Of a stretch of DNA of 44,840 nt, positions 3,439 through 31,000 are shown in pieces. The DNA is taken from positions 1 to 44,840 of the forward strand of contig CADCVE010000026.1 of the NCBI GenBank assembly GCA_902806065.1, in the 5' to 3' direction. The first letter of the stretch is position 1, and the number at the start of each line of letters is the position of its first letter. The stretch comes from an uncultured Rubrobacteraceae bacterium. GTDB taxonomy: Bacteria; Actinomycetota; Rubrobacteria; Rubrobacterales; Rubrobacteraceae. A program made the translations under genes and the position numbers. Under the pieces are notes generated by a model. That model was not told where the DNA came from. It saw only the letters and a program-made list of their open reading frames with translations, and made no database searches.

Positions 3439-5667
3439 CTACTTACCTTTACCGGCCTTAGCCTTGCTGGCCTTGGTCCTGGAGTTGTTCTCGGCGTCTT
3501 CTGACTCAACCTTTTCGGCGGCGGCACGCTCCTTGTCCATGATCTTCCCGAAACTCTTCCACGCCTTGCCTTTGGTGAGGATGCGGTATGCCTTCGTGCT
3601 CGCGAGACTAGCGCGGAGTCCGGCTGCTTCTTGCACGTGGCGCTGGGCGAGGCTGCCCATCATAAAGGCTGTTTGCGGCGGGAGCTTCGGGCTATCGGTG
3701 GCGATCTCATGCAGTCGGTCGCTCGCGACGATTGCGTCCTGATGATCGCCGAGCGAGTCCTGGATCGACTTCAGGGGCTTGATGAGCGCGCCGGTGGCCT
3801 TCTCGCTGTATACGTCCGTGAAGAACTCAAGAGCGTAGCGCAGGCGCTTGCCCTTCTTGCGCAGGTCGTGGTACTCCTCGGGATGGGAGGAGTCGTTCAG
3901 GCGGTTTGCGGCTTTGCTCCACTTCCGGTAGCGTCTGGAGAGGAGGCCGGGGCCAGCGACCAAGACAGGCTCGTCAGCCAACTCCTTCCCCGAGCCGCTA
4001 GCCGAGGCCTGCCCGAAGACCCTCTCATGGTCGGGGCCGCGCCGAAGCATCTCAGCGAAGGACCCCTCGAAGCGCGCGTAGCGGCCGGAGTTGAGGGTAT
4101 CCAGCATGCGCTTGCGCGCCTCCTCCCGCCGCTCTTTGACGGCGGCAATGATCTCGACGAAGGCTTCGGCGCCCTCCTCACCCGCGCCCGCGGCCCACTG
4201 TTCTAGCTGCTCGATCTGCACGTCGGAATCCCGGACCTCGCCTAGAGAACCACCGATCCAACGCAGTTCCTCCTGCAACCAGCGGGCGCGCTCCGGCAGC
4301 GCGTCCTCGAAGAGCCTCAAGGCGGCCCGCATCCTGCGCGTGGCGACCCGCATGTCGTGCAATTCCTCCGGGTCCTCCCCGAGCCGGGTACCGGCCTCGT
4401 GCGCCCGCATATTAGCGAACTGCCGCCGCAGTATCGCGAACGCCATCTCGCCTGTAGTCAGAGTCCCGTCGATGTTTTCGGACCCCAGCCCGGTCGCCCC
4501 GGAAGGACTGAGCCCGGTGGCGAAGATCCCCGCCTCGTACTTGGAGATCTTGGCCGGCCGCAGCCCCAGAGCACCCTCCAAGGCCTTCACGAACTCCCGC
4601 ACCCCGGGGTCGGAGGCATTCTCCTCCCGGACCTCGACCTCGACGCGGGTCAGGCCGGTCGTCTCTCCGTCATCTCCAAGAGGTATCTCCGACGAGTCGA
4701 GCACGACCTTACCCATCCGGCCACTCTCCCGGTCCCCGGTCTCTCGCTGACGTACGTCTCCCGAAGCATCTTGCACGATCTCGCCGGGAGAGTCATCAGC
4801 CGAGCCTTCGGAAGCGCCGACGCTGTCGTTGGAACTATTGAGACTCCCGTTGGCGGAGCCGTTAGTCTGTTCCTCGGATTGAAGGGCGAAGGTCTGGCGG
4901 TGCGTGCGGATCTCGAACATCGGACGCACCTCGCGAGTCCCGACGAGCGCCCGGACGCGCTCCCCAACGGGGCCGGTGGCCTTGCGTAGCGTCTCCAGCT
5001 TCGCGTTGCTCAACGGCTCGGAGATCTCACGCCGGCGCCGGATGTTGCCCTCGGCGCTGCCCCCAGCAGACGCCAGCGACTTCATCGTGGCCTCGGCCCC
5101 ACTACCCTTGCCCCGAACGCGCAGCGCGTATCCGGCACGGTAAAAACGCCAGTCCTCGGTATCGTAATAAGTGTCCACGAGATCTTCCGCAGACTCCGGA
5201 GAGACCAGCATCCCGGAACCCGAAGTATGCTCACCAAGCCAACCCTCTACCCGCTCAAGCTCCTCGACGTCGAACTGCCACTCTACCTCTTGAACGTCCG
5301 TCCCAGAAGGCCGCCCGGCCTTGCCAACACGCCCCGCGCCAGCCCTAGCAGCCCGACTCGTCCCGGACGCCGTCGCCTTCTTCTTGCTTGCCGCCGTCTG
5401 CCCCCTGCTTGAAGACTTGCTAGACGGCCCTCTCTTCGTGCCCGAAGACCGCCGGCTAGTCGAAGAACCACGCCCCCCCGCCTTCGCGCCCCCTGCCTTC
5501 GCGCCCCCTGCCTTCGCGCCCTCCGCCTCGGAAGACTGCTCCTTCCCGGTAGACTGGCCCTGCTCTGAACCCGCACTCACCTTCGCATCCTTCGCCTTCA
5601 CGTCCTGCGTCTCTTTAGGCTGCTCTTCGACAGCGGACTGGCCCTTCTCGGACTTCTGCTCTTCCAT
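3439..5667 (-). CDS. CYTH-CHAD domain protein with long low-complexity tails
   Basis: A 742-residue fusion of a CYTH (triphosphate tunnel) domain and a CHAD domain; CHAD helices with conserved His and Lys/Arg bind polyphosphate. Residues 1-125 are disordered, first acidic, then with GAKAG repeats, then Lys/Ser/Arg/Ala-rich like a histone H1 tail. CYTH spans about 126-390 (YYDTEDWRFYRAGYALRVR, then paired beta strands) but its signature reads EVEWQ rather than ExExK, and a Ser/Asp/Asn-rich insert lies at about 275-330. CHAD spans about 405-700, with both half-motifs visible: HDMRVATRRMRAALRLFED and YHDLRKKGKRLRYALEFF. The last residues are again Lys-rich (KASKAKAGKGK). It lies between ppk and sixA on the same strand, which supports a role in polyphosphate granules or polyphosphate sensing. 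Altered CYTH chemistry suggests binding rather than catalysis, an inference. Confidence 0.85.
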   Translation of the reverse strand: MEEQKSEKGQSAVEEQPKETQDVKAKDAKVSAGSEQGQSTGKEQSSEAEGAKAGGAKAGGAKAGGRGSSTSRRSSGTKRGPSSKSSSRGQTAASKKKATASGTSRAARAGAGRVGKAGRPSGTDVQEVEWQFDVEELERVEGWLGEHTSGSGMLVSPESAEDLVDTYYDTEDWRFYRAGYALRVRGKGSGAEATMKSLASAGGSAEGNIRRRREISEPLSNAKLETLRKATGPVGERVRALVGTREVRPMFEIRTHRQTFALQSEEQTNGSANGSLNSSNDSVGASEGSADDSPGEIVQDASGDVRQRETGDRESGRMGKVVLDSSEIPLGDDGETTGLTRVEVEVREENASDPGVREFVKALEGALGLRPAKISKYEAGIFATGLSPSGATGLGSENIDGTLTTGEMAFAILRRQFANMRAHEAGTRLGEDPEELHDMRVATRRMRAALRLFEDALPERARWLQEELRWIGGSLGEVRDSDVQIEQLEQWAAGAGEEGAEAFVEIIAAVKERREEARKRMLDTLNSGRYARFEGSFAEMLRRGPDHERVFGQASASGSGKELADEPVLVAGPGLLSRRYRKWSKAANRLNDSSHPEEYHDLRKKGKRLRYALEFFTDVYSEKATGALIKPLKSIQDSLGDHQDAIVASDRLHEIATDSPKLPPQTAFMMGSLAQRHVQEAAGLRASLASTKAYRILTKGKAWKSFGKIMDKERAAAEKVESEDAENNSRTKASKAKAGKGK
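5478..5523. repeat. 15-bp tandem repeat inside the CYTH-CHAD gene
   Basis: Three near-identical 15-base units (CCTTCGCGCCCCCTG on the plus strand) lie in tandem. They encode the repeated GAKAG peptide in the N-terminal disordered tail of the CYTH-CHAD protein. Because the unit is a multiple of three, slippage would change tail length without breaking the frame. Confidence 0.8.
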
Positions 5668-5699
5668 AAACTGCTCCCAAAACTTGTATTTAACATTAA

Positions 5700-5940
5700 T
5701 TTAACAAAACTATTATAACAGGTGGTTTGTGTTTTGCGTACCAAGGGACACACGTGTGGCAACCAACCATACCTTGCGCCGCCGCCAGCACGAGACTCTT
5801 TACCCCGGTCTCTACGGCAGACTGGCGGGTTCTCTCTAGGAGAGTTGCGCAGATGCCGCGCCCCCTCGCTTCGGCGGCCACAAACAGGTGGTTCAGGATC
5901 CACGGCCGGCGCAGCCACGGGCACCACATCCTCCGGACGG
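5700..5940 (-). pseudogene. GNAT acetyltransferase remnant
   Basis: Between ppk and the CYTH-CHAD gene a minus-strand frame encodes LNHLFVAAEARGRGICATLL followed by ERTRQSAVETGVKSLVLAA. This is the acetyl-CoA pyrophosphate-binding motif (V..E.RGRGIG..LL) and following helix of a GNAT N-acetyltransferase. Both ends are missing: upstream it runs into the ppk 3' region and after CVPWYAKHKPP it ends in AT-rich sequence. The fragment covers only about half of a GNAT fold, so it is a remnant or a very short orphan domain. Confidence 0.55.
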
Positions 5941-5967
5941 GCTCTGACGATGGTGCTCAAGGCTGTA

Positions 5968-8058
5968 CTAGAACGGCTCTTCGAGGAGCAGGGCCTGGCT
6001 GTCCAGGGGCTCTTCGCCAACTTTCGGTTGGAGGCGGGTGTAGGAGCCGTCGGCGTTCATCTCCCAGGAGTTAGCGGTGTCGTTCAGTTGGAGTTGCATG
6101 AGGCGCCGGATCTTCTGGCGGTGGCGGGCCTCGCACAGGGGGAAGACAGTCTCGACGCGGCGGTCGAGGTTGCGCTGCATCAGGTCAGCCGAGCCCAGGT
6201 AGATCTTCTCGCCCTCGCCCTCCCCGAAGGCGAAGATCCGCGCATGCTCCAGAAAGCGTCCCACGAGCGAGACCACCCGTATATTCTCACTGACCCCTTC
6301 CAGACCCGGCTTCAGGCAGCAGATGCCTCGAATTACCATCTCGATCTTCACCCCCGCCTGCGACGCCTGGTAGAACTCCTCGATGATCCTCGGGTCCGTC
6401 AGCGAGTTCATCTTGCACGAGATGAGGGCGGGCTCTCCCTTTTCGGCAAGCTCCCTCTGTTCGTGTATAAGGCCGACGATCTTCTCGCGCAGGGTCAGGG
6501 GCGCTACCAGCAACTCCTGGTACTCCTCCTGCTCCGAGTAGCCGGTCAGATAGTTGAAGAGGTCCGTACCGTCCTCCCCGATCTTGGGGTCGTCGGTAAA
6601 GTACGAGAAGTCCGTGTAGACGCGGGCGGTGCCGGGATTGTAGTTGCCGGTGCCCATGTGGACGTAGCGCCTCAAACTACCGCCCTCCCGCCGTACCACA
6701 AGGCACATCTTCGCGTGCGTCTTCAGGCCCACCAGGCCATAGGCGACGTGCACGCCCCGAGCCTCCAGTTGGCGCGCCCAGACGATATTCGGCTCCTCGT
6801 CAAAACGGGCCTTCAGCTCCACGAGAACGGCGACCTGCGTTTGCTCGTCGCGCGCCCCCGAGAGAGCCTCGATAATCGGCGAGTTCGACCCGGCGCGGTA
6901 CAGCGTCTGTTTGATCGCCAGTACCTCGTGGTCGGCGGCAGAGGCCCGCACGAACTCCACGACCGGGCTGAACGAGTCGTACGGATGGTAGAGCAGGATG
7001 TCGCCCTGGCGGATCTTCGAGAAGAAAGAGCCCGATCCCCGAAGCTCCGGCGGGATGCGCGGCGACAAGGGCGGGTACATCAAGTCCGACCGGTCGAGGT
7101 GCGTCAAGTCATCGAAGTCCCCGAGGCCCAGCGGCTCCGGCACGGCGTAGACCGAATCCGGGTTCACCGCCAGGTTCTCCGCCAGCCATTCGCGCAACTC
7201 GGCGGGCATGGAGTCCGTCACCATAAGCCTGACGCTCTGACCGAACCAGCGACCCGCGAGCTCGTGCTCTATCGCCTGCAACAAGTCCGAGGCTTCATCT
7301 TCCTCGATCACGAAGTCCGCGTTGCGCGTGACCTGAAAGACGTAGCTCGCCAGGATCTCCTTCCCGGGGAACAGCTCGTCGAGGTTCGCCGCGATTACCT
7401 CCTCGACCCTGACCAGCTTGATCTCCTCGTGTACACCCGGGGCCCGCATCTCCTCCGGCTCCTCCGTCGGCGGCACCTTCAGGAAACGCTCGATCGTGGT
7501 CGGTACCTTCAAACGCGCTAGTACCTCCCTACCCGCGTCCCCGATCACGACGAGCAGGTTCAACGAAAGGTTGGAGATGTGCGGAAAAGGGTGCGCGGGG
7601 TCCACGGCTAACGGGGTGAGGATCGGCAGGATGTCCCACGTGAACTGCTCCCGGAGACCCCGCTTCTCCTCTTGAGAGAGATCGCCATAAGCTACGAGGT
7701 CGATCCCCTCCTCCTTCAACGCGGGGAGGAGGTCCTTCTCCAGCACCGCCCGCTGGTCGGTAAAGAAGCGCCTGGTGTGCTCGTAGATGCGGCTTAGCTG
7801 CTCATCGGGGGTCATCCCGTCCGGGACGGGATTCGGAAGCTCGGCGACGACCTGCTGCTGCAGACCGGCGACCCGGATCATAAAAAACTCATCGAGGTTG
7901 GTCTCGGAGATAGAGACAAACCGCATCCTCTCCAACAAAGGATGCCGCTCGTCTTTTGCCTGCGCCAGAACGCGCTCGTTAAAGCCGAGCCAAGAGAGCT
8001 CGCGGTTCAGATAGAGCGACGGATCGGCGAGGTTTGTCCTTTGCTCGGCAACGTCCAT
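5968..8058 (-). CDS. ppk: Polyphosphate kinase 1
   Basis: PPK1 reversibly transfers the gamma phosphate of ATP to growing polyphosphate through a phosphohistidine. The 696-residue length is normal. The N domain starts LNRELSWLGFNERVLAQA. The catalytic histidine lies in GLKTHAKMCLVVRR at about residue 447, followed by RYVHMGTGNYNPGTARVYTD. The second conserved histidine is in FLEHARIFAF at about 600, then YLGSADLMQRNLDRRVE. The start follows a purine-rich site and lies about 15 bases downstream of the ppx/gppA stop, so the two are surely one operon. Synthesis (ppk) and degradation (ppx) are thus coexpressed, with a polyphosphate-binding CHAD protein downstream. Identification is secure. Confidence 0.97.
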   Translation of the reverse strand: MDVAEQRTNLADPSLYLNRELSWLGFNERVLAQAKDERHPLLERMRFVSISETNLDEFFMIRVAGLQQQVVAELPNPVPDGMTPDEQLSRIYEHTRRFFTDQRAVLEKDLLPALKEEGIDLVAYGDLSQEEKRGLREQFTWDILPILTPLAVDPAHPFPHISNLSLNLLVVIGDAGREVLARLKVPTTIERFLKVPPTEEPEEMRAPGVHEEIKLVRVEEVIAANLDELFPGKEILASYVFQVTRNADFVIEEDEASDLLQAIEHELAGRWFGQSVRLMVTDSMPAELREWLAENLAVNPDSVYAVPEPLGLGDFDDLTHLDRSDLMYPPLSPRIPPELRGSGSFFSKIRQGDILLYHPYDSFSPVVEFVRASAADHEVLAIKQTLYRAGSNSPIIEALSGARDEQTQVAVLVELKARFDEEPNIVWARQLEARGVHVAYGLVGLKTHAKMCLVVRREGGSLRRYVHMGTGNYNPGTARVYTDFSYFTDDPKIGEDGTDLFNYLTGYSEQEEYQELLVAPLTLREKIVGLIHEQRELAEKGEPALISCKMNSLTDPRIIEEFYQASQAGVKIEMVIRGICCLKPGLEGVSENIRVVSLVGRFLEHARIFAFGEGEGEKIYLGSADLMQRNLDRRVETVFPLCEARHRQKIRRLMQLQLNDTANSWEMNADGSYTRLQPKVGEEPLDSQALLLEEPF

Positions 8059-8072
8059 GCAGGTTTCCCCCT

Positions 8073-8990
8073 TTAAGGTCTCTTTCCGTTCCGAGCCTCT
8101 TCGGCCATCGTGAGGATTGCACCCTCTCTTATCCCCCCGCGGGCGACGGTGAGCTGGGGCCTATCGAACCGCTCTAGTATCGCCGCTAGAGTGGTGATCG
8201 CCGCGGGCATCACGCGCGCACGCTCGGGGGCGAGCCCCTCCTCCCGCGCCAGCATGGCCGCCGGCTTTTGTGAGATCTCCGCCGCGAGGGTCCTCAACCG
8301 CTCCACGGTAAGCTGGTCTTTGGTGAGCCGCAGGATCGCCCGAGCCGAACCCCCGATCGCCACGATCTCCGTTCCCTCTGGGAGGCCCCATCCCGGCATC
8401 ATCTCGATCACCGCGTCGCTCAGAGCTTCGAGCTCTCCGGCCTTTGGCGGATCGTGGCGCGTAAAACGCTCGGTGGTCCTGTTGGACCCCAGCGGGAGCG
8501 AGACTTGTTTCTCGGGGCCATCCGTACCGTCACCGAGGATGATTTGGGCGGAGCCGCCCCCGAGGTCCACAACGAGCGCGGGCGCCTCCCACGAGAAGTC
8601 TGGCCCCAGCGCCGAGACCGCCCCGCGAAAGCCGAGAAGAGCCTCCTCCTCACCAGAGACGAGACGTACCTCCAACCCCGCCTTCCCGAGCACCTCCCGG
8701 CAGAGGTCCGGGCCATTCTCCGCATCCCGAACGGCGCTCGTCGCCAGCACAGCGGGCTCCGGCGCGCCGTTGAGGGCGGCCAGCCGGGCGAAGAGGCTTA
8801 TGGCCTCAGCAGCCACCGGGATGCGAGCCTCCTCTATCCTCCCGGTCTCGTCTACCCCGGACCCGAGCCGGGCTGAGACCTTCTCGCCCGTAACCGGAAA
8901 CACTCCCCCGTTCTCCACCTCGCCGACGAGCAGGTGTATCGTGTTGGAACCTACGTCTATGACCGCGTGCGGGCTCAAATAAATCCCCAC
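8073..8990 (-). CDS. ppx: Exopolyphosphatase / GppA-family phosphatase
   Basis: A member of the Ppx/GppA family of the ASKHA (actin-like ATPase) fold, which splits terminal phosphate from polyphosphate or pppGpp. The 305 residues match the short two-domain form typical of actinobacteria. The first phosphate loop is IDVGSNTIHLLVGEV at about residues 11-25 and the second is VVDLGGGSAQIILGD at about 140-155; the catalytic Glu region is LATSAVRDAENG. It is the first gene of the minus-strand polyphosphate operon, divergent from the ferredoxin gene with about 200 bases between them that must hold both promoters. Ppx and GppA cannot be separated from sequence alone, but the ppk context favours polyphosphate. 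Confidence 0.9.
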   Translation of the reverse strand: MGIYLSPHAVIDVGSNTIHLLVGEVENGGVFPVTGEKVSARLGSGVDETGRIEEARIPVAAEAISLFARLAALNGAPEPAVLATSAVRDAENGPDLCREVLGKAGLEVRLVSGEEEALLGFRGAVSALGPDFSWEAPALVVDLGGGSAQIILGDGTDGPEKQVSLPLGSNRTTERFTRHDPPKAGELEALSDAVIEMMPGWGLPEGTEIVAIGGSARAILRLTKDQLTVERLRTLAAEISQKPAAMLAREEGLAPERARVMPAAITTLAAILERFDRPQLTVARGGIREGAILTMAEEARNGKRP

Positions 8991-18847: not shown

Positions 18848-19564
18848 GTGCAGCTCACTCTAGACGTACAGCGGGACATAAAGAGGTTTCTGGCGATAGG
18901 AGGAGTCTCGCTGGCCCTCGTGATCAGCAATAGCGGCCTCGCGAACGCCGCTCCCGCCCCCAACTCCGACGGTGACCGCGACGGGCTTACATACAAGCAA
19001 GAGGTCAAGGTAACCGACACCAACCCCCGCCTCGCCGACACCGACGAAGATGATATCAAGGACGGCAACGAGGACGTCGATGAGGACGGGGTCGACAACA
19101 CCGACGAACTCAAGCTCGGCACGAAGTTGGGCGACGAAGACTCCGACGACGACGGCATCGAGGACGGCGACGAGGACAAGGACTCCGACGACATCGAGAA
19201 CGAAGACGAGGACGACGACGCCGCCAGCGCCGACCAGTGCGCTCCCAAGGTTGAGGACGACGCTGACGAGGACTCTGACGACGACGACGTCGACGATGAG
19301 GACGAAAACGACTTTGGCGAGGGAGAGGACTCCGACTCTGACGGTGTAGAGGACGACGAGGACGACGACGACGACAACGACGGCACCGACGACGAGGAAG
19401 ACGTGGACTCCGACGACGACGGCATTGAAGACGGCGACGAGGACGACGACTCCAACGGCACCCCGGATGGTGACGAGGACGACGATGACGAGGACGACGA
19501 CTGCGACGACGACGGCATCGAGAACGACGAGGACGACGACGACGGCGATGACACGGACGACTAA
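18848..19564 (+). CDS. Hyperacidic secreted protein with calcium-binding-like repeats
   Basis: A 238-residue exported protein starting at GTG behind AAGGAG. Residues 1-38 form a signal peptide (basic start, hydrophobic core FLAIGGVSLALVISN, cleavage likely after ANA). The rest is dominated by Asp and Glu (over half of residues). Its first part has recognisable units such as SDGDRDGLTYKQE and VDEDGVDNTDELKLGT, and further on DSDDDGIEDGDED, which resemble thrombospondin type 3 / dockerin-type DxDxDG calcium loops. Later the loops dissolve into plain acidic runs. Two cysteines are present (DQCAPK, DDCDDD). No sorting signal or transmembrane end is seen, so it should be released or bound by charge. 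A strong terminator follows. Function likely calcium or cation binding at the surface, an inference. Confidence 0.85.
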   Translation: MQLTLDVQRDIKRFLAIGGVSLALVISNSGLANAAPAPNSDGDRDGLTYKQEVKVTDTNPRLADTDEDDIKDGNEDVDEDGVDNTDELKLGTKLGDEDSDDDGIEDGDEDKDSDDIENEDEDDDAASADQCAPKVEDDADEDSDDDDVDDEDENDFGEGEDSDSDGVEDDEDDDDDNDGTDDEEDVDSDDDGIEDGDEDDDSNGTPDGDEDDDDEDDDCDDDGIENDEDDDDGDDTDD

Positions 19565-24469: not shown

Positions 24470-24619
24470 CTACTCGTCTTTACTGATCCAGTACGTGAAC
24501 AAATACGCTCCAGAGACAATCGTGATGATCAGCAAGAACCCAGCGATAAGCCGCAGCGGAGCGTAACCGGGCCCCCCCGGCTGATTGAGTAGCGCGAGCA
24601 TCAGATCTAGTTCTGGCAC
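24470..24619 (-). CDS. 49-residue single-helix membrane protein of the respiratory operon
   Basis: The last gene of the respiratory operon. The GTG start overlaps the stop of the CydA-like gene (TAGTG) and a GGAGG lies nine bases upstream; an internal ATG six codons later is the alternative. The product has a short polar N-terminus (VPELDLMLALLNQPGGPGY), one transmembrane helix (LRLIAGFLLIITIVSGAYLF) and a polar tail (TYWISKDE). Size, position and layout are like the one-helix peptides of terminal oxidases and b6f complexes (CydX, CcoQ, PetN types), but I see no sequence match to any of these. Most likely an accessory subunit of the CydA-like protein. Confidence 0.65.
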   Translation of the reverse strand: MPELDLMLALLNQPGGPGYAPLRLIAGFLLIITIVSGAYLFTYWISKDE

Positions 24620-25953
24620 TACGAGCCACCTCCAATGGTGTCGCCCGCCGGACACTGCTCAGCCGGGGTCAACTCCTGCTCCAGAGTGATGCAGTTGTAG
24701 ATCAGGTACCCGGGATCGTTGTCTACCCTACGCGCCGTCTCCCGCGTGTAACCCATAGTTATCATGGTCATCACCACAAAGAAGGCGCACCCCATCAAGG
24801 CGTACTGGCTCCATCGACTCGCGCGCCCCCAGTGGAAGCCGTTGGAAGCCGCCCTCAGGTACATCGCGATAACAAAGAAGCCTACCAGCATCAGCCCGAT
24901 CAGGCCGATGTACTTCCAGGGATACATATCCCCGAGCGGTATCTTGGTCTCCTCACCACCAGCGAACTCGACAACACCAGGAATTATTGCTGCGTCGGCC
25001 GGTATGATGTTGAGGAGCGTGAACAGGGCCGTAAAACCTAGAGCCCCAACAGCCATCTTACGTATCAGAGGCATCGGCTTTACCGCAAACTTCAACTTGT
25101 GCACGAAGTATGCCGTGGCGGCGATGCTTATGAAGGCTATCTCCGTAACGAGGAGGAGAAAGACCCAAGCCTTATCCCCAAGCATAATCGTATTGAACGC
25201 CTCGGGTGCGCTCTCACGGATGCCTTTGAGGTACCCGTAGCCGATAACCGGCTGAATGATCAGGAACCCGAACCCCCAGACGAGGCCCCAGTGGCCCATC
25301 CAGTCGTAGTACTCCCTGTCTTCCTCGCGCGTGCTCCTGAGGTATCGCCATGCGCCCCAACCGGCGATAAGGAACCCCGCGTACGAGAAGTTGCCCACGA
25401 AGCGGTGCATGTTCAGCGGCACCATCGTCTGGTTCAAGAAAGTGCGGGCCACGTCCGTCGCCGGAGCCTCGGCGGGAGTGAGCATATAAGAAGCGACCGC
25501 ATCTATCATCGTCATCGCCATAAGGCCGAAGAAACCCGCGATCATCCCGAAAGTGACGTGCAGTATCTTCCGGTATGCCAGCTTATCCCAGACGTTGTAC
25601 CAGGCGTACACGATAATGATCTGACCCAAGAACATAAACGCTTCGATCAGGAACACCCAGAAGAAGATATTCTGCAGATACGAGAAGAACACGGGGAACA
25701 GCGTAATCAGGGCGAGCACAAAAGTTATCGCCAGCGCCGCCCCGGAGGCAAAGAGCAGTACCACGAACCGGGCCAGGTTCCTCGCAAACCGCTCATACTT
25801 CGGCTGCTTCGTCACCACGCCCAGATACTCGCTCGTCGCGGCAATAAGAACCGCCCCGATGATAAACGCGGCAAATAGTATGTGCGACTGAACGAGAGCG
25901 GCGATAACGACGTTCTTGCCGATTATCGGTACTTCGAGGTTACCTATTGGCAT
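24619..25953 (-). CDS. CydA-like membrane protein (cytochrome bd superfamily subunit I homologue)
   Basis: A 444-residue polytopic protein of the cytochrome bd subunit I superfamily. His24 in VQSHILFAAF matches the N-terminal heme-ligand His of CydA (E. coli His19), Glu104 in FLIEAFMFLG matches Glu99, and His183 in MHRFVGNFSYAGFLIAGWG matches the heme b558 ligand His186. The second Glu of the CydA pair, the GRQPW motif and the clear Met393 ligand are absent; the last helix ends MGYTRETARRVD. The C-terminus has two Cys (YNC, AEQCPAGD) but no CXXCH. No CydB gene is near. So it is probably a heme-b membrane protein that is not a normal quinol oxidase. It is next to subunit IV, about 10 bases apart. 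Confidence 0.8.
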   Translation of the reverse strand: MPIGNLEVPIIGKNVVIAALVQSHILFAAFIIGAVLIAATSEYLGVVTKQPKYERFARNLARFVVLLFASGAALAITFVLALITLFPVFFSYLQNIFFWVFLIEAFMFLGQIIIVYAWYNVWDKLAYRKILHVTFGMIAGFFGLMAMTMIDAVASYMLTPAEAPATDVARTFLNQTMVPLNMHRFVGNFSYAGFLIAGWGAWRYLRSTREEDREYYDWMGHWGLVWGFGFLIIQPVIGYGYLKGIRESAPEAFNTIMLGDKAWVFLLLVTEIAFISIAATAYFVHKLKFAVKPMPLIRKMAVGALGFTALFTLLNIIPADAAIIPGVVEFAGGEETKIPLGDMYPWKYIGLIGLMLVGFFVIAMYLRAASNGFHWGRASRWSQYALMGCAFFVVMTMITMGYTRETARRVDNDPGYLIYNCITLEQELTPAEQCPAGDTIGGGS

Positions 25954-25963
25954 CCGCTACCCC

Positions 25964-26446
25964 CTACTGCCCCGGAAAGTTGATGATCCTGGCGACTGCC
26001 ATGAGCATGTTCAGCACGACCACGACGACGACCAGCAAACCTATAACGGTTGCAAAGGGCCTTCTCAAGGGGCTGTATTGCGGACCCGTGTCGAGCCACG
26101 GCACCGCGAAGAGCAACCCGACGAAGATCGTCGGTACGACCACGGCTCCGAAACCAATCAGAGCATACCCGGGGAAGAACATGAGCATCTGCTCGTAGAA
26201 GAAGAAGAACCACTCCGGCCTGGGTATGTACGTGATGGTTGCCGGGTCTGCGGGCTCCGTCAGAGGTGCTGGCGAGAGGTACGACAGTACGCAGCAAGCT
26301 ATCAGAATAAGGGTCGAAACGAACAGGTCGTATAGCACCTGTTTGGGGAAGAACCCTATAGTTTCGTCCGGGCGGTCAAAGACGTTCTCTTCGGTGATTA
26401 CCTCTTCTTCAACTGGCTTGGCCTTGCCTGTTGCTGGCGCGTACAT
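25964..26446 (-). CDS. Cytochrome b6f/bc complex subunit IV-like protein
   Basis: The C-terminal half of a split cytochrome b (PetD/QcrC N-part type), 160 residues with three helices. The quinol-site motif is present as RPEWFFFFYEQML, where PEWF stands for the usual PEWY; the preceding loop PAPLTEPADPATITYIPRPE is typical. FFPKQVLYDLFVSTLILIAC is the first helix. In Bacillus this subunit carries a fused cytochrome c domain; here the protein ends right after the third helix with no CXXCH. It lies between cytochrome b6 and the CydA-like gene. Confidence 0.88.
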   Translation of the reverse strand: MYAPATGKAKPVEEEVITEENVFDRPDETIGFFPKQVLYDLFVSTLILIACCVLSYLSPAPLTEPADPATITYIPRPEWFFFFYEQMLMFFPGYALIGFGAVVVPTIFVGLLFAVPWLDTGPQYSPLRRPFATVIGLLVVVVVVLNMLMAVARIINFPGQ

Positions 26447-26518
26447 CTCTACACCTCTCTTCTAAAGCTTTGTGTCCGCATGATACCAGCGGATCTCTCT
26501 CGCCGGTGGTAAACGCTC

Positions 26519-27343
26519 TTACTCCCGCCTATCACGCTCTTCTCGATTCCGCCGTCCGAGGTTGGTCTCGCCGATTTCCTCATGCCCATTCTCCTCGTAG
26601 CTCTCATACAGCTCCAGGCGCTGCCGCTCGTGCAACTTCGCCAGCCGGTCGGAGTACTCGAACTCGCTTCCAAAGACCCCGTGCTTCCTGAGGAGGTACA
26701 GGTGTATCCCGATAAACGGCGCGAGGGCGGCCGGCAACAGCCACACGTGTATCGCGAAGAAGCGTGAAAGGGTGGCGGGTCCGGTCACGTCACCACCGAG
26801 AAGGAAGTGGATAGTCGCCCCCCCGACGAACGGGGAGTACGAGCCGATCTTCATGCCCACTACGGAGGCCCAGAAGCCATCCTGGTCCCAGCGGAGCAGG
26901 TACCCCGTGAACGCCAGTACGATGACGAGCAACAGGAGCACGACGCCGACCACCCAGTTAAGCTCTCGCGGTGCTTTGTAACCCCCAGAGAAGAACACCT
27001 GCGCCATGTGCAGACCAATGAACACCAGCAGGAAGTTCGCCGACCAGTAGTGGATGCCCCGTATCAGGGTCCCGAAGTACGCCTCTTCCATTATGTAGTA
27101 GATCGAGTCCCACGCGTGGTCAGTCGTGGGCACGTAATAGAAGAGCAAGAGGATGCCGGTCAGGAACTGCAGGGAGATGCAGAACAGCGTCGCGCTCCCC
27201 AGCGTGTATAGCCAGGCCCCTCTCTTCGGGACCGGCTCGTACAAGAAGTGCTCCATCATCGTTACTATGCCGGTGCGGTGCTCCATCCAGTCCGTAAGGA
27301 ACCTACTGGTATCTATTGCCTGAGACCTGATCCTGCCTATCAT
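26519..27343 (-). CDS. Cytochrome b6-type subunit
   Basis: The heme-carrying N-terminal half of split cytochrome b, 274 residues, four helices. Heme ligands are His98/His112 (HX13H, IHYWSANFLLVFIGLH) and His199/His214 (HX14H, IHVWLLPAALAPFIGIH), the b6 spacing. Cys55 in LFCISLQFLTG aligns with the cytochrome b6 cysteine that binds heme ci covalently (TCFLVQ..TG in plastid b6), so an extra heme is likely. After the last helix there is a charged 50-residue cytosolic tail (KLHERQRLELYESYEENGHE and an Arg/Glu-rich end), not usual for b6. It oxidises (mena)quinol together with the Rieske protein and subunit IV. Confidence 0.93.
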   Translation of the reverse strand: MIGRIRSQAIDTSRFLTDWMEHRTGIVTMMEHFLYEPVPKRGAWLYTLGSATLFCISLQFLTGILLLFYYVPTTDHAWDSIYYIMEEAYFGTLIRGIHYWSANFLLVFIGLHMAQVFFSGGYKAPRELNWVVGVVLLLLVIVLAFTGYLLRWDQDGFWASVVGMKIGSYSPFVGGATIHFLLGGDVTGPATLSRFFAIHVWLLPAALAPFIGIHLYLLRKHGVFGSEFEYSDRLAKLHERQRLELYESYEENGHEEIGETNLGRRNREERDRRE

Positions 27344-27358
27344 CCTGGATCTCCTTGA

Positions 27359-28057
27359 CTAGATTACGTAGGGCTCTTGAGGCCCATTTTCGCCACCGAC
27401 GTCGAACTCGTGCCTGACGTACAGTTTCCCGTCCTCGCGTACCTCATGAGTGTACCTGTAGAGGTCCCGCGGAGGCGGTCCCGCCACGTACTCACCGTTG
27501 ATGTTGTAGATCCCACCGTGACACGGGCACAGGAGCTCTCCTTCTCCTTCCCTGAGGATCCAACGAACCGGACACCCCAGGTGAGCGCAGGAACTGGAGA
27601 GGACGTTGAGATTCTCCTGAGCCTCCTGAACTTGTTCTTCGGTTAGAGTTCCCCCGTCATAGTTGTCCAGAAAGGAGGGACGATAGCTCTGCCCATACGT
27701 GCCGTCACCGAGGATCTCCGTCCTCCATGAGACCCAAAGGGCACTCTCGACCACGAACTCCTCTTTGGAGATGCCACTCTCCTCCTGAACCTTCGGCTCG
27801 GCGTAGATCTGCTCGACCGGAAAGTCCACCTTGAAGAACTTCGGCTCTTCCTCCGTGATCTCGGCTATCGGTCCGACCTCAAACCAGTCGTCGGGACCTT
27901 CGGGGACATCCGACTTTCCCAAGATATCCACGTCGATGATCGGAGCCAACACGAACGCCGCCGGTGGGATAGTCAGTATCGCCCCGACGATTGTCCCGAG
28001 TATCCCGAAACCCAGGAAATCGCCCCGGGTCATGGGATCTTTTTGTAGTTCTGCCAC
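27359..28057 (-). CDS. Rieske iron-sulfur protein
   Basis: The high-potential [2Fe-2S] subunit of the quinol-oxidising complex, 232 residues. Residues 15-40 form the membrane anchor, preceded by TRGDFLG, a single-Arg variant of the Tat-like motif. Cluster ligands are C157-A-H159 (CAHLGC, with the disulfide Cys162) and C177-P-C179-H180 (CPCHGG). Between anchor and cluster there is an extended acidic part (about 45-150), longer than in Bacillus QcrA. The gene is between the first CydA-like gene and cytochrome b6, all on the minus strand and closely spaced. Confidence 0.95.
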   Translation of the reverse strand: MAELQKDPMTRGDFLGFGILGTIVGAILTIPPAAFVLAPIIDVDILGKSDVPEGPDDWFEVGPIAEITEEEPKFFKVDFPVEQIYAEPKVQEESGISKEEFVVESALWVSWRTEILGDGTYGQSYRPSFLDNYDGGTLTEEQVQEAQENLNVLSSSCAHLGCPVRWILREGEGELLCPCHGGIYNINGEYVAGPPPRDLYRYTHEVREDGKLYVRHEFDVGGENGPQEPYVI

Positions 28058-28087
28058 CCTTCGCTCCTTCTAGGAATCCCTTGAAAG

Positions 28088-29407
28088 CTAGTTTCTGAAA
28101 CCACTCGGCGGCGGTTCGGCCTCCACCGAAAATTCGGGCTGATTATATATTGCGTCTGGCACTCTCGAATTCGATTTCATAAAGCCCATGTTAAGAGCCG
28201 TCGCCGCCGCCAGAACACCCAGTGCCAGCAACACGACCCTATAACTCGCCCCCGGAGAACCGTACCTGAAGCGCATCCGGCCCCGCACGTAAGTCAAGAA
28301 CGCCCCCCCCGTCGCGAGGATCATCACCAGGATCATCACGTAACGCATGTGGAAGAACGGGAAGTTCGCAATTGCCGCGGGAGCGATAGAGTACAGCCCC
28401 GCTAACGCCGCTATGAACCCGAAGAGCTGTATGGGACGCCGGCTCGCCCGATCCGGGTGCCTCCCCGCCCCTATGTACATCGCGACGTTCGACAGCACGA
28501 AGAGCAACACGACCATTATCAGGTTGATATACAACAGGTTAGAGGTAGTGGTGCTGCCACCCTCGCCGACGAGCCTGCCGTAACCACCACCGGACTGCAG
28601 AGCGTAGGCGATAAAGAATCCCGAGATCGGCTGAATGAGCAAGAAGCCGGTCCCCCATGTCAGTCCCACCGAGGTAGACCAGTCGTAGAAGGCCTTGTCC
28701 GACTCGGTCTTGGACCGTATATACATAAAAGCGGCCCAGGCGGCGAGGGCGAAGGCCGGCCAGGAGAGGTTGGCGAAGGTGCGGTGCAGGATCATCTCCA
28801 CAAACATCGGGTTGAAGATCCCTGAGAGAGCCGCCCCGAAGGAAGAGATGTTCCCCGCGGAGATCGGCTCGGCGTTCGGCCCGCCACCCGTGGTCATGTA
28901 GGTGTCTATACCAGTCATGATGACCATCCACACCCATATAAACGCCCCCATTGTGAATCCCAAGAACGCATGCCGTCTCTTCTTGAGGACACTGAAGCGG
29001 TCCCACTTATAGTAATAGGAGTACATCCCCCACAGCGCGAGGAACATCGAGGCCATCGCTATAACGATCAGGTAGAAGAAGTGAGTAAACAGCGTCCCCG
29101 TCACCCTTGGATAGAAGCCGACGAGCAAGACTAGGAACAGCACCGCGAACGTGGCCCCCGTCGAGAAGGTAAGAACGTTGAAGCGCACCATCGAGTGCGC
29201 CAGCCGGTCCATGCGCGGGCTACCGGTGCGCGCCCCCCACGCCTGAAGGACCGGCGCGGCGATCGCGAACCCCACAAACAACTCCGCGAAGAACATATGC
29301 ACAATCATGGTAAAACCCGTAAAGCCCCTGGTGCCCCCGGGGAACGCAAAGTTCGAGAGGTCTATCTGAGCCAGGAGTAGATTTGTGGAAGCGATAACCG
29401 AACTCAT
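28088..29407 (-). CDS. Second CydA-like membrane protein
   Basis: A 439-residue polytopic protein of the same superfamily as the product at 24619-25953 but strongly diverged. His37 in TMIVHMFFAELFVGFAIA and His208 in MILHRTFANLSWPAFALAAW match the CydA ligands His19 and His186, and HMRYVMILVMI could supply the Met ligand. The two CydA glutamates (Glu99/Glu107) are missing: the matching helix reads YLIVIAMASMFLALWG. GRQPW is missing too; the last helix ends NMGFMKSNSRVPDA. Without the glutamates proton delivery to an oxygen site of the known type is unlikely, so an electron-transfer or structural role is more plausible. It stands about 30 bases upstream of the Rieske gene. Confidence 0.75.
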   Translation of the reverse strand: MSSVIASTNLLLAQIDLSNFAFPGGTRGFTGFTMIVHMFFAELFVGFAIAAPVLQAWGARTGSPRMDRLAHSMVRFNVLTFSTGATFAVLFLVLLVGFYPRVTGTLFTHFFYLIVIAMASMFLALWGMYSYYYKWDRFSVLKKRRHAFLGFTMGAFIWVWMVIMTGIDTYMTTGGGPNAEPISAGNISSFGAALSGIFNPMFVEMILHRTFANLSWPAFALAAWAAFMYIRSKTESDKAFYDWSTSVGLTWGTGFLLIQPISGFFIAYALQSGGGYGRLVGEGGSTTTSNLLYINLIMVVLLFVLSNVAMYIGAGRHPDRASRRPIQLFGFIAALAGLYSIAPAAIANFPFFHMRYVMILVMILATGGAFLTYVRGRMRFRYGSPGASYRVVLLALGVLAAATALNMGFMKSNSRVPDAIYNQPEFSVEAEPPPSGFRN

Positions 29408-29425
29408 ACCTTGAACAAACTCCTT

Positions 29426-30097
29426 CTAGGCTCTCGGGGCGTCCATGACGGACCCCTCCTGCTCGGCCGGTCCCGCCCGGTGCAAGACGGCCTCTCCCAC
29501 GGCCCTGGGCTGCAACCTCTGATCTATCACGTAGTACGTGGAGTCGGTGACCCCGTTGGCCTGCAGGATCTCCCGTATCGGCCTTATGAGTCGCCGCTCT
29601 TTGGTCATCGCGAAGATAAGGACCTTACCCAACTCGAACTGGTCGTTCCAGGCACCGGCCTCCTCTCTGGGCGCGCTCATGTCCGTGAGTATAGGCGAGG
29701 CTCCGACTCTCGTGAAAGACCCCGCCAGAAGGATAGCTGTTAGCGAGATAAAGACCATAAACGTCGGTACCCCTATAGACGGCACGATGATCGCGAAGAA
29801 CAGCCCCAGGAGCAGGAAAGCCACCGCGAACCCTATCGGCACCTCCAGACCCCGCCTGTCATCCGGGACCACGATATATAGCGTCCCCTCGGGGAATGGT
29901 TCGGGCGCATCCGGGTCCTGGCGCTTTAGGATAACGGTGAGGTCGTCCTTCCCTACACCGAGTTCCCTGATCTCCTTGACCGCCCGGTTGAGCGCGGAGC
30001 CATCTTCCATGATCCCTATTAAGGTGTACTCGGCCTCGCGCTCTCCGGGATCAGTACCACTGGAGGCCACATTCGATCTCTCCCGCCCTTTCTCCAA
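29426..30097 (-). CDS. Unknown two-helix membrane protein, first gene of the respiratory operon
   Basis: A 223-residue protein of unknown function. The N-terminal part (EAEYTLIGIMEDGSALNRAV, then KEIRELGVGKDDLTVI) resembles the alpha-beta domain of YflT/general-stress-17M type proteins, where a gene-regulatory or membrane-sensing role has been suggested. Two hydrophobic segments follow (VPIGFAVAFLLLGLFFAIIV and VFISLTAILLAG), then a second alpha-beta domain (GKVLIFAMTKERRLIRPIRE, DSTYYVIDQ). It is about 20 bases upstream of the second CydA-like gene and is divergent from the next gene, so the operon promoter lies in 30098-30313. Confidence 0.6.
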   Translation of the reverse strand: MEKGRERSNVASSGTDPGEREAEYTLIGIMEDGSALNRAVKEIRELGVGKDDLTVILKRQDPDAPEPFPEGTLYIVVPDDRRGLEVPIGFAVAFLLLGLFFAIIVPSIGVPTFMVFISLTAILLAGSFTRVGASPILTDMSAPREEAGAWNDQFELGKVLIFAMTKERRLIRPIREILQANGVTDSTYYVIDQRLQPRAVGEAVLHRAGPAEQEGSVMDAPRA

Positions 30098-30313: not shown

Positions 30314-31000
30314 ATGGACACACGCAATCAACAAAAGCTTCCGGGTTACGGTCCCTACGACCCCCGGCCGGACGACCAGTACCGAGAGCCGGGGCTTGGC
30401 GCCTGGATCCAGCGTAACACCTGGCTCCTTACCCGCCTCTTCATGGTAATGGTATTGACCTTCGGGGCCTCGACCACCGCGGCGAACTTCTCTTATGGGT
30501 TGGAAGGCGAGCCAACGCAGCTGAGCATCGAAGACTTGAACCGCGGAGAGTTGCCAGCCGGGACGGCGCTCGGAGACTATGTCGAGGTCACCGGAACACC
30601 GGACTTCGGTCCGGCCCCGGAGCAGGTTGGGGGGCCGGGCTCCGGGATAGCCGTCTCCTCGCGCTACAGCGCCGCATACTTCTACTTCAGTCTTCAGGAG
30701 ACCGGTGACAACCTGATCATACAGACCGCCCAGACGCCACCCGATATTACGGAGACCGGGGAGCAAGTGTGGGGCGGCAAGCTCGCCACGGTCGGCACCG
30801 TGATCTTTCACGATACTACCCAGAGAGGACTCGAAGCTGTAGGTCTGCCCCAAGACGAATCCATCGCGGTCATAGAGACCGGTGACACCCCCGAGTACTA
30901 CCGCCAGATCTTCCCGGCCTACTCGGCTATTATCGGCCTGTGGTTCCTCTCGATCGCCTGGCTTGTCTGGAAGAGGAACAAGCCTTTCCTCGGCTTGTAG
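30314..31000 (+). CDS. Unknown two-helix membrane protein with external domain
   Basis: Function not recognised. The 228-residue protein has a polar, Pro/Asp/Arg-rich start, a helix (LTRLFMVMVLTFGASTTAAN), a large external domain of mostly beta character (EPTQLSIEDLNRGELPAGTA, GDYVEVTGTPDFG, SRYSAAYFYFSLQETGDNLI) and a second helix near the end (AYSAIIGLWFLSIAWLVW) followed by KRNKPFLGL. The GDYVEVTGTPD piece looks like an OB-type strand pattern seen in membrane proteins that border a pore or a heme protein. It is divergent from the respiratory operon, with about 215 bases between them, and could be co-regulated. Confidence 0.6.
   Translation: MDTRNQQKLPGYGPYDPRPDDQYREPGLGAWIQRNTWLLTRLFMVMVLTFGASTTAANFSYGLEGEPTQLSIEDLNRGELPAGTALGDYVEVTGTPDFGPAPEQVGGPGSGIAVSSRYSAAYFYFSLQETGDNLIIQTAQTPPDITETGEQVWGGKLATVGTVIFHDTTQRGLEAVGLPQDESIAVIETGDTPEYYRQIFPAYSAIIGLWFLSIAWLVWKRNKPFLGL

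Follow-up and report, generated by a model that had tools for sequence, protein, structure and literature searches.

A Rubrobacter operon combining b6/Rieske genes with two CydA-like genes: a probable menaquinol:O2 oxidoreductase without c-type heme

Where do the electrons of a Rieske protein go when no cytochrome c is encoded beside it to take them up? In textbook respiratory chains, a Rieske/cytochrome b complex hands electrons to cytochrome c or a copper protein, which in turn supplies the oxidase. The question is raised by an operon on contig CADCVE010000026.1 (assembly GCA_902806065.1) of an uncultured Rubrobacteraceae bacterium, of which we analyzed a window, i.e., the whole stretch of 44,840 nucleotides read on the forward strand. 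On its minus strand, running from 30097 to 24470, seven co-directional open reading frames (ORFs) with intergenic gaps of 10–72 nt encode two proteins resembling CydA, subunit I of cytochrome bd (here CydA1 and CydA2), together with the parts of a quinol-oxidizing b6/Rieske unit; the start codon of the last gene overlaps the CydA2 stop codon by one base. We consider it probable that the operon products form one respiratory complex, a menaquinol:O2 oxidoreductase devoid of c-type heme. On balance, and with somewhat less confidence, we also favor the more specific view that the Rieske protein passes electrons directly to b-type hemes of CydA1/CydA2 within one c-heme-free Q-cycle complex, which would be the main, and in some species the only, O2 reductase of this obligately aerobic family. 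The gene order is YflT-like protein, CydA1, Rieske protein, cytochrome b6, subunit IV, CydA2 and one-helix peptide, with lengths given below in amino acids (aa):

29426..30097, minus strand: gene 1, P0001, 223 aa, weak YflT-like cytoplasmic domain plus two transmembrane (TM) helices
28088..29407, minus strand: gene 2, CydA1, P0002, 439 aa, PF01654 Cyt_bd_oxida_I (E 5e-9)
27359..28057, minus strand: gene 3, Rieske protein, P0003, 232 aa, PF00355 (E 8.5e-8)
26519..27343, minus strand: gene 4, cytochrome b6, P0004, 274 aa, PF00033 Cytochrome_B (E 4e-46)
25964..26446, minus strand: gene 5, subunit IV, P0005, 160 aa, PF00032 Cytochrom_B_C (E 2e-5)
24619..25953, minus strand: gene 6, CydA2, P0006, 444 aa, PF01654 Cyt_bd_oxida_I (E 1e-19)
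24470..24619, minus strand: gene 7, P0007, 49 aa, one-helix peptide with FTYWISKDE end

This layout agrees with the original prediction of seven genes running in one direction, and the Pfam families matched by P0002–P0006 are those expected from the identities it had assigned to the CydA-like, Rieske, b6 and subunit IV products. A scan of the seven ORF translations detected CXXCH in none of them, again as predicted, and the operon products include no c-type subunit, be it cytochrome f, c1 or a fused c. CydB is encoded neither within the operon nor in any sampled copy of it; the predicted lack of CydB thus holds for the operon but not for the genome, where a canonical CydAB pair is found on another contig (C25).

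The search for the same gene order in other Rubrobacteria, proposed along with the original prediction, returned about 20 further Rubrobacter loci with the identical seven-gene order, R. marinus and R. taiwanensis among them, so that the arrangement cannot be attributed to chance. The CydA2 profile matched 26 of the 27 sampled family genomes when the window's own is counted (25 of the 26 others), and outside the family gave one weak match among 269 other Actinomycetota. Several genomes carry, beside the common operon (type I), a second, diverged operon (type II) in which the core order is kept (L097, L100, L104, L106, L026, L111). In each of the five trees calculated for CydA1, Rieske, b6, subunit IV and CydA2, the type II copies form one clade with a support of 0.98–1.0, indicating that the five core genes were duplicated and diverged together without partner swapping. 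Duplication and co-divergence of the whole operon as a unit strengthen the view that it encodes an oxidase. An apparently frame-broken CydA2 copy was seen at one locus (L027).

The quinol-oxidizing core retains what a Q-cycle enzyme would need. In alignments of 13–14 family sequences, the b6 heme ligands H98/H112 (HX13H) and H199/H214 (HX14H), the Rieske [2Fe-2S] ligand motifs CAHLGC and CPCHGG, and the Qo motif PEWF (E78) of subunit IV were all invariant, which bears out the b6-type ligands, the CxH/CxxH ligands and the quinol motif named in the original prediction. Subunit IV matched TIGR01156 with an E of 9e-10, under the cut-off of that model. The prediction erred, in turn, with regard to a heme ci cysteine in b6: the ligand Cys35 of solved b6f structures aligns to Thr47 of P0004, which is invariant in 14 of 14 family sequences, and the sole nearby cysteine, C55, aligns to a different, non-ligand b6 cysteine and is replaced by L or T in relatives. 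The Rieske protein has one TM anchor and a GPPP loop, its nearest solved relative being the Thermus Rieske protein. High-potential Rieske proteins carry CPCHGS; the Ser is missing in CPCHGG, which, from general knowledge, would fit a lower potential suited to menaquinol. As far as can be judged from sequence, the anatomy of b6 and subunit IV thus supports an ordinary Q-cycle. This bears on a quinol-linked electron bifurcation of a new kind, with the two CydA-like proteins as distinct acceptors, which the original prediction had offered as one of its two readings and to which we give hardly any credence. The operon does encode two differing CydA-like subunits, and a report on Ca. Manganitrophus speculates on bifurcation for its bd-like complex TO_2 (PMC9040806), but there is no low-potential acceptor and no flavin or ferredoxin partner among the operon products, and the anatomy is explained by the ordinary Q-cycle split of any b6/Rieske enzyme, beyond which nothing speaks for bifurcation.

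What kind of proteins are CydA1 and CydA2? Single-chain AlphaFold2 models (pLDDT 75 and 73, respectively) aligned to CydA chains with a Z of 30.8 (3.2 Å over 335 residues) for CydA1 and of 25.5 (3.4 Å over 325 residues) for CydA2; in both cases CydA was by far the best match, the next group being ActC/ActF-type subunits of alternative complex III (ACIII). With PF01654 matches above cut-off and a modeled CydA fold, both can be assigned to the cytochrome bd subunit I superfamily. For ligand mapping, profiles of the two proteins were aligned with 20 sequences of canonical CydA, the alignment covering the N-terminal half only (hhalign P 9.5e-10 over this half for CydA2). In CydA1, H37 corresponds to E. 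coli H19 and H208 to H186, and equivalents of E99 and E107 are missing. CydA2 has H24 for H19, E104 for E99, H132 for H126 and H183 for H186; its E107 position holds Gln, as in most type I copies, and Glu in those of the diverged type II. Across the family copies of CydA1 and CydA2 alike, the residues corresponding to H19 and H186 do not vary. Hydropathy and helix predictions gave about 10 TM helices for each protein, which probably places the C-terminal tails of both on the outer side, where the Rieske head moves. These tails are conserved (MxMKSNSR in CydA1; MG..RE..RR in CydA2, whose tail also carries the invariant C421 and C434), and one may guess that they provide the Rieske docking site. 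A plasmid collection contained a single remote CydA2 relative with 23% identity, from Agrobacterium (H1, NZ_CP092895.1), and no CydA1 relatives; this plasmid-borne relative (L117) is annotated as a c-type cytochrome and may be a fusion of a CydA-like protein with a heme c domain.

The C-terminal (Q-loop) half of either protein could not be aligned to canonical CydA, and GRQPW is missing from both, so the quinol-site signatures appear to have been lost in CydA1 and CydA2. It is therefore very improbable, in our view, that the two oxidize quinol as a stand-alone oxidase of the archaeal CydAA' kind, with the b6/Rieske genes merely co-expressed, and their strict co-inheritance with Rieske, b6 and subunit IV points the same way. 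That said, a CydB-less CydAA' is an accepted oxidase architecture, and orphan CydA2 genes do occur (L096:6906-8264, L099:6134-7501, L107:5582-6913), in genomes that also contain a full operon.

Is there another route to O2 in these bacteria? A published description has Rubrobacter as an obligate aerobe whose menaquinone is MK-8 (PMC6834744). Genome contents were inferred from family profile searches over 39 Rubrobacteraceae genomes. COX1 matches occurred in two of them (G195 and G173), both in frames of about 760 aa; the one compared, that of G195, is a quinol NO reductase (E 1e-157), and no O2-reducing heme-copper oxidase was recognized in the 39 genomes, with the ~760-aa match of G173 left uncompared. 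The cytochrome c families PF13442 and PF00034 were each found in one genome, on the same single contig of a metagenome-assembled genome (MAG; G098), which also encodes a transketolase-like protein and is probably foreign. The cytochrome c assembly family PF01578 was found in none of the 39 genomes, while 9 of 14 control genomes were positive. CydB exceeded its cut-off in 19 of 39. Searches of the window's genome found neither PF13442/PF00034 cytochrome c nor PF00127 cupredoxin nor COX1, so that the predicted lack of a cytochrome c oxidase subunit extends beyond the operon. Most telling is G041, closed as a single 3,225,748-base contig, with two complete operons and one orphan CydA2, in which CydB, canonical CydA, COX1, PF13442/PF00034 cytochrome c and PF00127 cupredoxin were all not found. 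Likewise, both CydA-like proteins were present and CydB and canonical CydA not found in G026, G206, G237, G216 and G152, which are at least 92% complete. For obligate aerobes without cytochrome c, O2-reducing heme-copper oxidase and, in the closed genome, CydAB or cupredoxin, the assignment of the operon as an oxidase is strengthened by elimination. By the same reasoning, we infer that it encodes the O2 reductase of G041-like genomes, unless respiration there uses something unrecognized. In the passages concerned, a soil-crust study reports Rubrobacteria MAGs and isolates without cytochrome c oxidase; it credits Rubrobacteria with a 'cytochrome bd ubiquinol oxidase', and those passages discuss neither the absence of CydB nor a link to b6/Rieske genes (PMC7901476). 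As a separate observation, the quinol NO reductase gene of G195 (L112:65-2353) adjoins a canonical CydAB pair (L112:3617-6035; coordinates in that order).

Several points weigh against the operon being a c-heme-free oxidase. The E. coli ligands M393 (b558) and E445 (b595) have no assignable conserved counterpart in CydA1 or CydA2, which makes the heme content of the CydA pair uncertain. The invariant M362 of CydA1 is at most a candidate M393 equivalent; M354 and M358 of the same protein were ruled out in this role as they are not conserved, and CydA2 His374 was dismissed as an E445 substitute, the position holding V, Q, R or L in other copies. Furthermore, canonical CydA (with GRQPW) and CydB are encoded on contig C25 of the window's genome, and canonical CydAB also in about half of the family, so that O2 respiration in the window's genome need not depend on the operon. 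The CydA-like proteins might then not be O2 reductases at all, serving instead as an anchor or relay in a b6/Rieske complex with another acceptor while canonical CydAB respires O2; other tentative roles have been assigned to the bd-like proteins of Nitrospira clusters as well (PMC6606698). We regard this as rather unlikely, considering that the closed genome and several CydAB-less ones have no other recognized O2 reductase although the genus is described as an obligate aerobe, and that residues matching H19 and E99 are retained in CydA2. PF00127 cupredoxins, in turn, were detected in 12 of the 39 genomes, and such carriers serve classical bc/b6f complexes. A small soluble or membrane-bound carrier, be it a cupredoxin or an unrecognized redox protein, might thus link a separate b6/Rieske complex to an O2-reducing CydA pair. 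This is unlikely given that neither the cupredoxin nor the two cytochrome c families were found in the closed genome or that of the window, and that the five core subunits are co-encoded and have co-diverged. Finally, a search for alternative oxidase gave no match, but the control genomes gave none either.

We thus return to a c-heme-free menaquinol:O2 oxidoreductase and outline how it might work. In a first step, b6 and subunit IV would oxidize menaquinol at the PEWF Qo site, as suggested by the conserved Qo, heme and Rieske ligands; following a Q-cycle, one electron would return by way of both b hemes to the Qi side, and the second would pass to the Rieske cluster. In a second step, the head of the Rieske protein, mobile at the outer face, may dock on CydA1/CydA2 and reduce a b-type heme there, with no cytochrome f, c1 or c in between. 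As neither c1 nor f nor a soluble carrier is encoded, the simplest acceptor for the Rieske protein would be a b-type heme in the CydA proteins of the same operon, and direct transfer within one complex would be likely. For comparison, movement of the Rieske head in bc1 bridges 24 Å between the Qo site and heme c1 (PMC9162462). In a third step, CydA1 and CydA2 might act as a CydAA'-like heterodimer, one paralogue taking CydB's structural place; CydA2 is the more likely O2-reducing subunit since its counterparts of H19 and E99 are retained. The cytochrome-c-free oxidase put forward in the original prediction hence gains from elimination and co-inheritance, whereas the proposed Rieske-to-CydA transfer stays at the level of inference.

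How does this arrangement relate to known systems? It shares with cytochrome b6f the split b6/subunit IV, HX13H and HX14H, a PEW-type Qo motif and the Rieske protein, but differs by lacking cytochrome f and the heme ci cysteine and by including two CydA-like proteins. Canonical quinol-oxidizing cytochrome bd differs in having GRQPW and a Q-loop, missing from CydA1/CydA2, and CydB, missing from the operon. The actinobacterial bcc-aa3 system is an obligate III-IV-type supercomplex without soluble carrier; its oxidase is of the heme-copper type, and one of its subunits is a diheme cytochrome c. The operon would follow the same carrier-less supercomplex logic, as proposed here, although neither the diheme cytochrome c nor the heme-copper oxidase of that system was found. 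According to Murali et al. (2021), CydAA' of Caldivirga maquilingensis is reportedly an O2 reductase of two CydA paralogues that oxidizes quinol itself; the Rubrobacter pair likewise consists of two paralogues, yet has no quinol-site signatures and stands alongside a Rieske/b6 unit. The phylogeny of that study may already include the present sequences. The OR-N CydAA' oxidases of Nitrospirota and Nitrospinota (Murali et al. 2021, as summarized in PMC10839748 and PMC12342949) come close going by their published description: like the Rubrobacter pair, they consist of two different CydA paralogues and lack both CydB and a quinol site (PMC10839748). They are thought to use cytochrome c, whereas neither a cytochrome c nor the assembly family was found in the window's genome or closed relatives. 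OR-N5 genes lie directly downstream of ACIII genes in Nitrospirales (PMC12342949); the quinol-oxidizing partner in Rubrobacter is b6/Rieske instead. For TO_3 and TO_4 of Ca. Manganitrophus, bd-like proteins combined with complex III or ACIII-like parts are described with a proposed function only, and an absence of c-type hemes is not reported for these clusters in the parts compared (PMC9040806). Nitrospira moscoviensis has a complex III cluster with bd-like genes plus many c-type cytochromes (PMC6606698). The Rubrobacter operon is set apart from both by the absence of any c-type heme and by its b6-type unit lacking heme ci. We found no description of it in the open-licence literature; one may exist elsewhere.

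If the proposed reading is correct, a carrier-less Q-cycle would be joined to a bd-type O2 reductase with no covalent heme, at a higher energy yield than that of cytochrome bd alone. Rubrobacter would then offer a cultivable, obligately aerobic model for many uncharacterized CydA-like proteins (OR-N and relatives), and the published view of a plain cytochrome bd quinol oxidase in Rubrobacteria would need revision.

The first and last genes flank this core. Gene 1, which heads both operon types, had been predicted as a stress-like membrane protein; two TM helices (86-104 and 108-126) support the membrane part, whereas the YflT-like stress domain is at most weak, as the protein alone gave no Pfam match and 9 of 15 relatives matched PF11181 YflT weakly (best E 0.0027). 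It is likely an accessory or regulatory subunit. Gene 7, predicted as a 49-residue one-helix protein, is a real conserved gene: a TM helix is predicted at 24-42, FTYWISK.E forms the C-terminal end in all aligned copies, and the gene directly follows CydA2 in most type I copies. Judged by position, it would encode a small subunit.

Next to the operon, at 30314-31000 (plus strand), lies a divergently transcribed gene for a 228-aa membrane protein without Pfam match. In 22 loci it adjoins a type I operon, whereas it is not found beside the diverged type II copies. Permease, Lon-domain-like and MscS neighbors are also syntenic, so this gene may reflect simple synteny and not an assembly factor. 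Elsewhere in the window, a secreted-looking 238-aa protein is encoded at 18848-19564 (plus strand), which consists of a long series of DxDxDG-like repeats rich in Asp, Glu and Gly, matched by GAC tandem repeats in the DNA, and at 3439-8990 (minus strand) a CYTH/CHAD protein, a polyphosphate kinase and a Ppx/GppA phosphatase follow in a row as a polyphosphate cluster.

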